The notes under the pieces were generated by a model. The model made no database searches. It saw only the letters and a list, made by a program, of their open reading frames with translations, and was not told the DNA's origin. The translations under genes were made by a program, and so were the position numbers. This document shows, in pieces, positions 4,311-36,518 of a stretch of 36,829 nt of DNA. Origin of the DNA: an uncultured bacterium (GTDB taxonomy: Bacteria; Patescibacteriota; Minisyncoccia; Moranbacterales; GWC2-37-73); contig CAISKQ010000029.1 of the NCBI GenBank assembly GCA_903885965.1, positions 1-36,829 on the forward strand, written 5' to 3'. How positions within the stretch are numbered: the first letter of the stretch is position 1; every line of letters begins with the position of its first letter.

Positions 4311-4730
4311 TTAATGTTTTTGTGAAAAATTTAGCACGAAATTTTCCAATTTTATTAATCTCTTTTCCAATTTTTGGAAGTCTTCCAAATCAACCTTCTG
4401 AGAGAGTTTGTGCTTAATATCGGTTACATCTATTTGAAGACTGTCAACTTTTGTTTCAAGATTATCAACTTTTGTTTCAAGATTATCAACTTTTGTTTCA
4501 AGATTATCAACTTTTGTTTCAAGATTATCAACTTTTGTTTCAAGCTTATCAAATCTGGCATCCATCTTATCAAATCTGGCATCCATGCCATCCAAGCGAC
4601 CAATGATTCCACTATGTTGTTCAGCAAGAACTTGTATTCCGTCATTCATGCTTTCCAGCATCGACATCACTTCACCGAAACCAAAAGTCTTTTCTTCAGT
4701 TTTATTTTTTTGCTTTTTCATAGTAATCAT
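4311..4730 (-). CDS. Small coiled-coil protein with seven exact-length heptads
   Basis: The protein has 139 residues, is highly charged and has no signal peptide. The centre is two MDARFDK heptads followed by five LETKVDN-type heptads, so leucine or methionine and valine or phenylalanine fall at a and d positions of a long parallel coiled coil; a second helix (residues ~100-139) follows. The DNA is a 21-bp tandem array (4444-4590). An alternative ATG lies three codons inside (4721); neither start has a clear ribosome site. Similar short coiled-coil proteins are common in CPR genomes, but the function is unknown. It sits between a SpoU-type methyltransferase gene (38 bp upstream) and a terminator. 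Confidence 0.75.
   Translation of the reverse strand: MITMKKQKNKTEEKTFGFGEVMSMLESMNDGIQVLAEQHSGIIGRLDGMDARFDKMDARFDKLETKVDNLETKVDNLETKVDNLETKVDNLETKVDSLQIDVTDIKHKLSQKVDLEDFQKLEKRLIKLENFVLNFSQKH
4444..4590. repeat. 21-bp tandem repeat encoding heptads
   Basis: Five copies of a 21-bp unit beginning TCAACTTTTGTTTC (4444-4548) are almost identical and are followed by two copies of a related 21-bp unit (4549-4590). The period equals seven codons. Low divergence suggests recent expansion or ongoing slippage. Confidence 0.9.
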
Positions 4731-5269: not shown

Positions 5270-5374
5270 AATTAAAATTTATTCTATCATTCTTCTGGCA
5301 CTTTATGCAATTTAAATTTTAACAAAAGATGAGTCATACGCGATATATAATTCTAACCAAAAATAATCGCAAAA

Positions 5375-5488
5375 TTTTTACGAGCTTGTTTGCTTTTTAG
5401 GCTTTAGCGTCCGACAGGAAGCCAGAGCTTCTTGGCTATAGTTCCCAGCCAAGAAGCGTGCTCTAAAAAGGAAACAAGCTTGTAAAAA
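5375..5488. repeat. Nested long hairpin element, copy 1
   Basis: Outer arms of 26 bp (5375-5400 and 5463-5488) pair with two non-Watson-Crick positions. An inner perfect 11-bp stem (5427-5437 with 5447-5457) has a 9-nt loop. A homologous element at 13304-13415 preserves both stems despite base changes, so the structure rather than the sequence seems conserved. Confidence 0.8.
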
Positions 5489-5774
5489 TACCTTGTAAGA
5501 TAAAGGGGCTTGCTTAGACAAAAAATAAATTAGCCCAAAAATAAAAAATGATTTATACTAAAAACAAAGAGCCTTCAGAATAGCTTGGCGAAAAATTGAA
5601 ACCCACCTGGATTATCAGGGAAAAAATATATTTTTTTCCGATACTTTTTTCAAGGGATTCAGCCGCCCATTGCTTGCATTGAGGGCTTTTTTGTTACACC
5701 TACGAATATACAAATCAACTACAAATATACAAAAGGTTATAATACCAAATTAACTAAAACCCTGTTATTTTTAA

Positions 5775-5809
5775 GGAGGCTCAACCTCCATTATGGAGGT
5801 TGAGCCTCC
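5775..5809. repeat. Perfect 16-bp inverted repeat with 3-nt loop
   Basis: Arms 5775-5790 and 5794-5809 are exactly complementary and contain GGAGG and CCTCC. There is no T-tract on either side, so it is not a standard terminator. Confidence 0.7.
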
Positions 5810-5927
5810 AACGTCTATCTACCATTAATTAAGTTAATTCTGTATAACACCCCCTAAAAACATTTAACCAATTTATAAAAAAAGAACCTGAAATTTGAGC
5901 AATATGACAATATAGCAATGTAACAAT

Positions 5928-13269: not shown

Positions 13270-13303
13270 TAATGAACTAATCAGGCGTAATTTATGATTT
13301 TAA

Positions 13304-13415
13304 TTTTTACGAGTTTGTTTATTTTTTAGACCATTAAAGCGACAGCTTCTCTGAGCCCTTGGTCATTGTACTCGGCCAAGGAGCGCGTCCTAAAAAATGA
13401 ACAGACTTGTAAAAA
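13304..13415. repeat. Nested long hairpin element, copy 2
   Basis: Outer 26-bp arms at 13304-13329 and 13390-13415; inner stem 13355-13364 with 13374-13384 (one bulge) and a 9-nt loop. It corresponds position for position to 5375-5488. Outer-stem pairs 11 and 19 change from C:G to T:A with both sides altered. Confidence 0.8.
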
Positions 13416-13444
13416 TTATTAATATATTTTATGAAAGCTATGAT

Positions 13445-13474
13445 TTGCGTATGATACTAAAGAACTGCTATACT
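13445..13474 (+). promoter_or_regulatory. Possible dnaX promoter
   Basis: -35 TTGCGT (13445-13450), 18-bp spacer, good -10 TATACT (13469-13474), about 45 bp before the dnaX ATG. Confidence 0.45.
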
Positions 13475-20261: not shown

Positions 20262-20354
20262 CCCACAAATATACAAATTTCTTACAAATCTACAAATATA
20301 CAGAAGTGATGTAGGATCATTTGTAGATTTGTAGTTTATTTGTATATTTGTGGG
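20262..20354. repeat. Long palindrome of ~9-nt units upstream of yjbQ
   Basis: Arms 20262-20297 and 20319-20354 are complementary at 32 of 36 positions around a 21-nt loop. They are built from ACAAATATAC and ACAAATCTAC units. All four mismatches lie in a 5-nt patch (TTCTT against AAACT). Confidence 0.85.
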
Positions 20355-33563: not shown

Positions 33564-36518
33564 TTAATTGCCAGGAGCCACCTCGATGAATCCGCCAGGC
33601 CTAACTACAATTGGACATCCTGGACATTTAATGGTTTTAGCTGTTGATGGACATGGGATACCTTTGGCCGTACATTCAGAAGTATTTCGGCTATCATCAA
33701 AACCTGTGCAATTGTTTTTAGCCATGCAAACAAAATCAGCAGCCGTTGTCGTGATGCCTCTGCTGCAATTTTTCGTGTCAGCGCAAAAAGCCTTGATAGC
33801 AGCATCTGTCTGAGTGCAATTGTAATCAGAATAAGTTGGGGCTTTGGTGCCAGCCGTTAAAGCATTGATGCCATTGTCACAAGTATCCCCAATGCAAGTA
33901 TTAGCAGCACAACCATTATCAGTAAGTACTGGTAGTGTACACGACCCAGAAAATACACCAGTATTTGTCCCACCGCTTGCGCTGGAACAGGAAAATTTGT
34001 ACGTTTGACTGCCATTTAAAATCGTTGTCCATTGACCAGAAGTTCCTAAATTCAAACTCATCCAACCAGCCGGACCACTAGTTGGGGTACAAGAAGTGGC
34101 ACCACTGGAAGTCCAAACAAGAATCAAGGAACAATCATCACCTTTTAGGGTACCACCAAAAGAAACCGAAGGTGTTGTACAAGCTTTAGTTCCAGAAATC
34201 CATTTAGCACCATCCCAACACATTGAATCACTACACGTGCTGGCAGCAGAGCAATTGCCATTGCCAACACTGGCACATGTTTTAATGCCACTAACCCAAG
34301 TTAAATTATTGTAACATTGTTGACCACTGCAAGTGATGGCGGCGCAACCATTGTCAGGACAAGTCTTGGTGCCAGCAACGGTGGTGATGGAATTGTTGCA
34401 AGTGGTTGTAGTGCAAGTGTTGGCAGCGCAACCATTATCGCAAGCCAGAATTCCTGGAGCTGTTGGATTGACACCATTATTACAAGTCTGACCGACGCAA
34501 GTGTTGACTTCGCAACCGTTGCTTAATCTTGGAGCGCTACAAGAAGCAGGTGTTCCACCATTTGAGCCGGTGCAAGTCCAGGTGTACGCAGTTGCGCCAG
34601 AGGCTACAAATGAGGCTGAGCCAGTTGAGCAGAGGCCAGCCGAAGGAGCTGCGGTTCTGGCAACACCATTGGCTGTGCCACAAACCCCATTAATAGGCTG
34701 TTTAGGGAGATTCAAAAAGAAAGTCATATATGCATAATTTCCTGTTGATCCAGGAAGGCTTGCCGTAACATCAAGTCGAGCATATGTGGTCCAGGGATTG
34801 GTTCCTTGAGCACTGGCTTGTGATGGCATTTGCATAGTCCCACTGAAATATTTTGTAATGCTTTGCAGGTTAGTTTCCGAAGCTGTCCATTTTTTCCCCC
34901 AATTCAGGCCAGCACCACCAAAGCAGTCTCCTGGAGTAGAAAGGGACGTGTTACAAGCATTGGTCGTCATGCTGTGATATTCATTCACCTGCACATTCCA
35001 TCCCGTGGAGCCATTCAGACATTCAGCAACCGAGAGGTCACCAGACATAGAAAATTGCTCCCCATATGAATAAATGTATGAACTGGGATGATTGATGTTG
35101 AAATTTCCTGTGGTCATAGCACCTGGAATAGTATAGGTAAGCGCCATTGCTTGCCCCCTCCCCACCACCAAGCCACCAACAACAAATGCCAAGAAGATTA
35201 ACGACTTAACTCTAAATTTCTTGCCTCTAGTTTTCCAGAAAATAATTACCAAACTTACTACAAAAAGAATCGAAATAAAAATCAGCAATATTCTTTTTGC
35301 AGTTAGGCCTATTTTAACAGGCTGAGCTTGAACTGGACTTTTTGGACTTTCAATATTCCTAGCATCTAATTGATCACTTCCGCTAGAAAGAGAGACACTA
35401 GCCTTAGGATTGCTGCAATTACTAATTGCGGGAAGGGTTAAAATTGAGATTGTTTTGTCAATGGTAACTTCTTGAGAAAAAGGAGCGATACAGGTATCAT
35501 TGCTGGCGTCAGTGATGTTGAGAGTGACAGTAACTTTTGGTAACTCGGTGCCCTTGCCAGCTCGAGAGCTTGGGAAATTGTCTGCTGATGGACTCCAAAA
35601 AAGCTTAGCAGAGATGGTGTCACCTGATTGATAGTTTTCTTTATCTAATTGAATATTTTGAATAGTAGCGCTTTGACCTTGAATGACATAGTGCGCAATG
35701 ATTTTTTCAGCGATGATTGCCTTGTCTTGAGTCAGGGAAATGACAGCGTCATAAGCTTGGGGATCTGGAGCCTTAGGGATGTTGAGCGTGAAGTCTTTTT
35801 TTTCTTGGGCAGCAAAAGTTATGTCTGATTGAGTTGGGTAACTAATATTTACACTTGGTCCATAGAGAGAGCGACGGAAAGTGTTGATATTTGGGGCAAC
35901 TGTCAATTGAGAGTTGGAATTGTTTTGAGCGTTGCAAGTTAAAGTCAGAGTTTCGCTTTGAGCTAGGTCGACACCTTGAGAAAGGTTGTATTTTGTTTCA
36001 GCGTTGTTGACTTTCAGATAGCAAGAATCTGGCATAATTGTCAGTGAATCTTGTTTTTGAGAAAGGTTCACTTTTCCAGCGTTGCCAAGTCCAAGAGCAA
36101 GACCACTAGTAGTTTTGCCAACTGCCCAGACGTCATACTCTCCATGTAGATAGCTTGGGACTTGATATTGAATTTCTTTGTGCAAAAGTTGCTTGGGAGC
36201 CAGCGTGATAATTTCCGGGGAGATCAAAGTGTCAACAGTAGTCTGACCTTCTTTGGTAATTTTAAGAATTTCAACTCCATATTTGATGTCTGATTGCGGA
36301 GTATCGCCTTGATTTTCCAAGTCCAGACCAACAGTAATTGCTTGAGGGGTTTCCTTAAGAATAGTAGCGCCTGAAAGATTTACATTAGCAACGATGACGG
36401 GTTTGACGTTTGAAATAGGAGCAGAAGCTGGAATATTATTTGGGGCTGTTTGCCCCAAGGCAGCCACAGGAAACAAAACAATTGCAGCGAGAATAGGTAC
36501 TAAGAATTTGCGAGACAT
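33564..36518 (-). CDS. Large Cys-rich surface protein with an internal signal-peptide-like segment
   Basis: The protein has 984 residues. An N-terminal signal peptide (about 1-22) is followed by an exported beta-rich region (~25-400, CARDB/Ig-like look). Then come a TM helix (~408-427), a very basic loop KTRGKKFRVK, and a second hydrophobic stretch ending GRGQAMA (~433-459) that resembles a complete signal peptide with an AxA cleavage site. The C-terminal ~525 residues hold a domain with GVCGTANG...TWTCTGSNGG, five DNGCAANTC-type repeats (~665-890) and a Cys-rich end with CPGCPIVVRPGGF. Possible readings are a two-pass anchored protein, or two exported proteins fused in frame. Probably cell-surface or pilin/adhesin-like; the role is not known. 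Probable -10 TATAAT at 36564-36569. Confidence 0.85.
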   Translation of the reverse strand: MSRKFLVPILAAIVLFPVAALGQTAPNNIPASAPISNVKPVIVANVNLSGATILKETPQAITVGLDLENQGDTPQSDIKYGVEILKITKEGQTTVDTLISPEIITLAPKQLLHKEIQYQVPSYLHGEYDVWAVGKTTSGLALGLGNAGKVNLSQKQDSLTIMPDSCYLKVNNAETKYNLSQGVDLAQSETLTLTCNAQNNSNSQLTVAPNINTFRRSLYGPSVNISYPTQSDITFAAQEKKDFTLNIPKAPDPQAYDAVISLTQDKAIIAEKIIAHYVIQGQSATIQNIQLDKENYQSGDTISAKLFWSPSADNFPSSRAGKGTELPKVTVTLNITDASNDTCIAPFSQEVTIDKTISILTLPAISNCSNPKASVSLSSGSDQLDARNIESPKSPVQAQPVKIGLTAKRILLIFISILFVVSLVIIFWKTRGKKFRVKSLIFLAFVVGGLVVGRGQAMALTYTIPGAMTTGNFNINHPSSYIYSYGEQFSMSGDLSVAECLNGSTGWNVQVNEYHSMTTNACNTSLSTPGDCFGGAGLNWGKKWTASETNLQSITKYFSGTMQMPSQASAQGTNPWTTYARLDVTASLPGSTGNYAYMTFFLNLPKQPINGVCGTANGVARTAAPSAGLCSTGSASFVASGATAYTWTCTGSNGGTPASCSAPRLSNGCEVNTCVGQTCNNGVNPTAPGILACDNGCAANTCTTTTCNNSITTVAGTKTCPDNGCAAITCSGQQCYNNLTWVSGIKTCASVGNGNCSAASTCSDSMCWDGAKWISGTKACTTPSVSFGGTLKGDDCSLILVWTSSGATSCTPTSGPAGWMSLNLGTSGQWTTILNGSQTYKFSCSSASGGTNTGVFSGSCTLPVLTDNGCAANTCIGDTCDNGINALTAGTKAPTYSDYNCTQTDAAIKAFCADTKNCSRGITTTAADFVCMAKNNCTGFDDSRNTSECTAKGIPCPSTAKTIKCPGCPIVVRPGGFIEVAPGN

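Follow-up and report, generated by a model that had tools for sequence, protein, structure and literature searches.

A palindromic mobile element with ISL3-type ends in Candidatus Moranbacteria: two nested hairpins as its probable core

Two nested hairpins in a 36,829-nucleotide stretch of DNA from an uncultured bacterium (contig CAISKQ010000029.1, referred to as the window at its full length) are very probably the core of a MITE of Candidatus Moranbacteria, which would have been moved in trans by an ISL3-family transposase and would not have been kept as a host RNA. The preliminary description of this DNA had offered two readings of the hairpins, a structured RNA family or a mobile palindromic, MITE-like element. 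The latter was borne out by dispersed copies, terminal repeats and 8-bp duplications, by an insertion sequence that shares these ends, and by orthologous sites free of the element, whereas the former was not upheld. The element is of a known kind, that is an ISL3-type MITE with a structured core, and represents a new family member in Ca. Moranbacteria.

Both hairpins were found where they had been placed, copy 1 at 5375-5488 and copy 2 at 13304-13415. The outer arms of copy 1, TTTTTACGAGCTTGTTTGCTTTTTAG (5375-5400) and CTAAAAAGGAAACAAGCTTGTAAAAA (5463-5488), form 24 Watson-Crick pairs, the two exceptions being pair 8 (G·T) and pair 18 (a G·G mismatch), and the inner stem (GCTTCTTGGCT / AGCCAAGAAGC) comprises 11 bp closed by a 9-nt loop. 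Pair 8 is a G·T in the outer arms of copy 2 as well (13304-13329 and 13390-13415), where pairs 12 and 17 are T·G wobbles, while the inner stem of this copy is shorter, consisting of 8 bp followed by GC/GC across a bulge; the 11-bp inner stem that had been described for both copies is hence present in copy 1 but not in copy 2. The G·T shared by both copies and the change from C:G in copy 1 to T:A in copy 2 at outer pairs 11 and 19 are as first described. Folding of the + strand gave z scores of -9.3 (copy 1) and -8.9 (copy 2), whereby none of 200 shuffles was equally stable. Strong stems in an intergenic location might indicate ordinary intrinsic terminators or chance palindromes, an idea to which practically no credence is given: the 3' side of the outer stem carries A-runs (the 3' arm ends in GTAAAAAT in both window copies) and, as no T-run follows the stem, the terminator reading was rejected, in agreement with the initial statement that these are not ordinary terminators. 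Homologous copies elsewhere, target duplications and mobile-element ends likewise refute both terminators and chance.

Instead of a two-copy element of about 113 bp, as initially assumed, the hairpins were identified as merely the core of a larger element with about 23 copies in the genome. With copy 1 as the query, the own genome (67 contigs, 1.27 Mb) yielded 22 clear matches and one partial match, and in most of these copies, aligned in one orientation, the similarity extends past the hairpin and stops sharply at GGGTCATACGCAATTTATGGTT on the left and at its complement on the right. Thus defined, the terminal inverted repeats are 22 bp long (GGGTCATACGCAATTTATGGTT), and full copies measure about 180-203 bp, with element lengths of 180-185 or 197-211 bp that differ mainly by a left spacer of about 18 bp. 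The element is short and multi-copy and holds no transposase gene, as is characteristic of a MITE. Within the window the following features were assigned:

13278 to 13457, + strand: window copy 2, a complete MITE of 180 bp that belongs to the subtype lacking the left spacer; terminal-repeat match 15/22 and 16/22, target duplication 7/8.
13278 to 13299, + strand: left terminal inverted repeat of copy 2, TAATCAGGCGTAATTTATGATT (a decayed GGGTCATACGCAATTTATGGTT), from the terminal-repeat match.
13436 to 13457, - strand: right terminal inverted repeat of copy 2, reading ..GCTATGATTTGCGTATGATAC on the + strand, from the terminal-repeat match.
13270 to 13277, no strand: left 8-bp target duplication of copy 2, TAATGAAC, from duplication comparison.
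13458 to 13465, no strand: right 8-bp target duplication of copy 2, TAAAGAAC, 7/8 match with the left one.
13302 to 13415, + strand: core of copy 2 with outer stem, short GACA-loop hairpin and inner hairpin with 9-nt loop; core profile 82.8 bits, folding z -8.9.
5331 to 5372, + strand: copy 1, left terminal repeat plus spacer (GAGTCATACGCGATATATAATTCTAACC...), 17/22 match; the junction of TTTTAACAAAAGAT with GRGT recurs in sister genome G004.
5373 to 5488, + strand: core of copy 1 with outer stem 5375-5400 / 5463-5488 and the inner 11-bp hairpin between the arms; core profile 93.9 bits, z -9.3.
5489 to 5519, + strand: right flank of copy 1, right terminal repeat no longer recognisable, possible remnant TTGCTTAGAC at 5510-5519; 11/22 match and comparison with G003 and G004.

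Judged by these matches, copy 2 is a complete old insertion and copy 1 retains the left end only (5331), the best candidate for its right terminal repeat not exceeding background (11/22). More generally, most copies would by now be old, decaying insertions.

The evidence for mobility comes from the element's borders. Among 49 copies with at least 14/22 terminal-repeat matches at both ends, 22 are flanked exactly at the borders by an AT-rich 8-bp target duplication matching at 7/8 or 8/8, a level reached by 0.7% of flank pairs when these were mismatched by random pairing between copies. Moreover, the own genome contains a 1419-bp insertion sequence (L081:1296-2714) with the same terminal repeats at both ends, which is flanked by a perfect 8-bp duplication (CAAAAAAG) and directly abuts another MITE copy (L019). 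Its ORFs match NF049916 (1.6e-23), NF049917 ISAon1 (2.6e-88 and 1.4e-45) and Pfam PF01610 DDE_Tnp_ISL3, whereby the N-terminal ORF corresponds to the ISAon1 upstream protein family and the downstream part to the ISAon1 transposase with the ISL3 DDE domain, and on the strength of these matches the transposase is assigned to the ISAon1 group of the ISL3 family. By its ends, which it shares with the insertion sequence, and by its target duplications the element is thus identified as an ISL3-type MITE. The transposon ends are GGGTCATACGCAA, while the end proposed in the preliminary description, TTTTTACGAG, turned out to be an arm of the inner hairpin. The ORFs of the insertion sequence do not share a frame, an arrangement compatible with the two-protein ISAon1 models; owing to an in-frame TAG at L081:2330 the insertion sequence with its transposase is probably dead. 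A search of the other 130 genomes of the order revealed no transposase homologue, and the terminal repeats occur in 13 of the order's 131 genomes. Multi-copy insertion sequences often drop out of metagenome assemblies, hence the missing homologues weigh little. Given that the sole transposase found is probably dead and has no homologue in these 130 genomes, the mobiliser is one that we infer: a transposase of the ISL3 family (ISAon1 group) would have mobilised the elements in trans through recognition of the common ends.

Comparison of orthologous sites is consistent with insertion. At the junction between a gtrA-like gene and dnaX (gene names assigned by eye), which holds copy 2, the element is absent in four sister genomes and the intergenic sequence has diverged; conversely, the own-genome sites orthologous to the sister-genome copies L170, L181, L210/L207 and L215/L234 lack the element. 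Divergence of the flanks is such that none of these unoccupied sites displays a single target copy matching in every letter. The copy 1 site has a more complex history, with one type of element in the own genome and G003, another with both ends in G004, a third with fully rewritten stems in G002 and none in G001. Different element subfamilies between species were likewise found at the L215/L234 site, meaning that either sites were used repeatedly or cores were exchanged by conversion.

In total 103 copies were collected, with 17-30 matches in each of the five other genomes of the genus, and the core is present in all six genomes of the genus as well as in two sister genera. A covariance-model search, which had been proposed at the outset, gave among 380 genomes sampled from the phylum no copy that is certain outside the family and one weak match. 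Named records place the element family in Candidatus Moranbacteria. The copies of Ca. Moranbacteria GW2011_GWC2_37_8 have identical ends and an identical core plan although their stem letters differ; they are accompanied by the 8-bp duplications CTTTTAAT and TTTATTAT, and the core lies in either orientation between these ends (L114 as compared to L122 and L128). In Ca. Paceibacterota STD2_77 the same terminal repeats enclose a different folded interior (L124:5243-5406 and L127:3943-4326), with an 8-bp duplication (GTGAATTA) at L124. At L082:1020-1260 a 42-bp MITE end fragment adjoins a fragment that by eye resembles a Y1/REP-type transposase. Ends without the core, both core orientations within the same ends and, furthermore, about 15 copies with a good core and unrecognisable terminal repeats, which plain decay does not predict well, might be explained by assuming that the core was once an independent palindromic element or RNA and was captured later between ISL3-type ends. 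Such a capture is regarded as rather unlikely, as no target duplication was seen directly at the core ends and many of the seemingly core-only copies have kept one decayed end.

The structure of the core is documented by compensatory change, which had been noted from the two window copies and was confirmed with 94 aligned cores and 26 pairs in three helices. Standard pairs occupy 94.8% of the cells, and change on both sides occurred at 20 of the 26 pairs, a number that falls to 10.1 in shuffles and to 7-14 once partners were slid; double-change cells number 182 versus 9-31 in the slid controls, and the covariation score amounts to 0.259 versus 0.030-0.061, all counts being inflated by relatedness of and exchange between copies. 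Scanning the stems identified complete inner-stem versions including GCTTCTTGGCT, GCGTTTGACC, GCACTTGACC, GCATTTAGCC, CCCTTGACC and CAACTAGCC, all of them accompanied by their complements, and together with covariation above the controls this documents that the compensation is real. When copies at shared sites are compared, differences are about half as frequent at stem positions as at unpaired ones. The short hairpin carries the loop GACA, which scores best among tetraloops in 53 of 107 copies, and one stem position is G·U in 55 of 94 copies, which suggests some constraint on a single strand. Stable cGNNAg DNA tetraloops are a possible parallel to the GACA loop and are not used as evidence here.

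Matched changes in both arms may alternatively need no selection at all, with the MITE's arms being kept complementary by hairpin-templated (quasipalindrome) repair and by conversion between copies. This is a real possibility, albeit one short of being probable: the alignment appears mosaic with hairpin types freely combined, different subfamilies occupy the same orthologous site, and the counts of changes to G·U and A·C, given below, are symmetric. On the other hand, conversion accounts for the spread of variants and not for their first origin, and the GACA loop and the plan of three stems recur in three genera whose stem letters differ, suggesting that the plan itself is kept. For the ISL3-type MITE favoured here, a passenger transposon whose complementary arms would be upheld at the level of DNA or transposition, two routes of upkeep may be considered, both with less assurance than its mobilisation in trans, namely that the nested palindrome stays complementary since folding matters as DNA or during transposition, or that repair and conversion of the above kind maintain the matched arms.

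Selection on an RNA would be expected to show as an excess of G·U over A·C among changes on the strand that is transcribed. Strand-specific tolerance of this kind was seen neither in pairs of copies at shared sites nor on the tree: 13 such pairs gave 16 changes to G·U and 22 to A·C when read on the + strand, 20 and 18 when read on the - strand, and on the tree 65 changes from a Watson-Crick pair led to G·U and 53 to A·C. No Rfam family matched the element at gathering score, sub-threshold hits being at chance level only. In 85 of 94 copies the + strand has a better fold than the - strand; flanking co-directional genes, however, are antisense to this better-folding strand at 32 of 37 independent sites (5 sense, p = 7e-6), so that read-through mRNA contains for the most part the strand with the poorer fold. 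Neither Rfam nor the G·U and A·C counts nor the orientation lend support to the element as a host RNA gene, and the case for a host RNA appears weak. A structured non-coding RNA, cis-acting or small, might still be carried by the transposon and act on neighbouring mRNAs, with selection keeping its pairing, as RNA action of this kind was proposed for Correia/NEMIS or ERIC transcripts. Strong compensation in all three stems, the GACA loop, the G·U position, the better fold of the + strand and the lower variability of paired positions would fit such an RNA, which is nevertheless considered distinctly unlikely given that the lack of a G·U preference, the strand carried by read-through mRNA and the Rfam result all speak against it.

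With respect to the orientation bias, the element tracks GC skew as well (24 of 31). In 83% of genes the strand coincides with GC skew, which leaves transcription and replication inseparable as orientation cues; the five discordant copies split 3 to 2. Probably, insertions that put the better-folding strand into mRNA or into the lagging-strand template were lost.

Further repeats and conserved blocks were observed in the window. Downstream of copy 1 a non-coding block on the + strand (5539-5697, z -4.2) with a terminator-like end (GCCC..GGGCTTTTTT) is strongly conserved in six of six genomes of the genus and, with no above-threshold Rfam match, is a candidate for an unannotated structured RNA. 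A second dispersed repeat (5739-5860) contains a perfect 16-bp palindrome (GGAGGCTCAACCTCC/GGAGGTTGAGCCTCC) and has at least 25 related copies in the genus with 81-97% identity. Inverted repeats of the type CCCCACAAATATACAAAT..TACAAATCTACAAAT locate to 5699-5733, 20262-20297 and 20319-20354 as well as to L257 and L258; related repeats in G003 and G004 flank a small gene (132 aa in G004), which we take to be GxxExxY-like and which separates the gtrA-like gene from dnaX; this points to a further mobile unit. Within a - strand ORF, 21-bp direct repeats (ACTTTTGTTTCAAGATTATCA) at 4405-4572 probably encode a coiled-coil repeat, and imperfect 84-bp repeats at 33866-34523 lie in an ORF of 984 aa.

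Among known systems the element is placed with ISL3-family MITEs of the ISAon1 group, being short, without a gene of its own, and sharing terminal repeats and 8-bp duplications with the ISAon1-group element of this genome; in contrast to ISL3-derived MITEs, its interior is a three-stem palindromic core with no recognisable remnant of a deleted transposase gene. QMITE2 of Coxiella burnetii, with direct repeats of 7-9 bp, terminal repeats of 23-29 bp and a strongly folding core of 113-145 bp (PMC10969869), has the same proportions as far as its description goes. Correia/NEMIS of Neisseria and ERIC of enterobacteria are comparable as mobile repeats of about 100-200 bp with long stem-loops (PMC2229807, PMC2649163), but are set apart by description through their 5'-TA-3' termini (PMC2229807), unlike GGGTCATACG here, and through effects that act on the transcribed strand (PMC2229807, PMC2649163), whereas read-through mRNA of the Moranbacteria element holds the less well folding one. 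RUP, BOX and SPRITE of Streptococcus pneumoniae are small folded mobile repeats as well, RUP and BOX possessing terminal repeats and target duplications; these are enriched between convergent genes and follow coding bias only mildly (about 61%; PMC3049150), while for the element described here antisense co-directional sites dominate (32:5). A limited literature search returned no description of the element and no specific work on MITEs in CPR or Moranbacteria.

The finding documents MITE expansion in a lineage of small, reduced genomes (Candidate Phyla Radiation). Tentatively, and with considerable doubt, the core may be a selected folding module in the movement or tolerance of ISL3-type MITEs of Ca. 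Moranbacteria, acting as RNA or single-stranded DNA whose stems are exchangeable and whose GACA-loop hairpin is conserved, which, if true, would explain both the structure-preserving sequence turnover across genera and the antisense orientation bias. With about 100 copies carrying matched stem changes, the family provides a good natural data set for asking whether selection or templated repair maintains the fold of palindromic mobile elements. Its orientation bias relative to neighbouring genes is a clear observation that any model of the element must account for.
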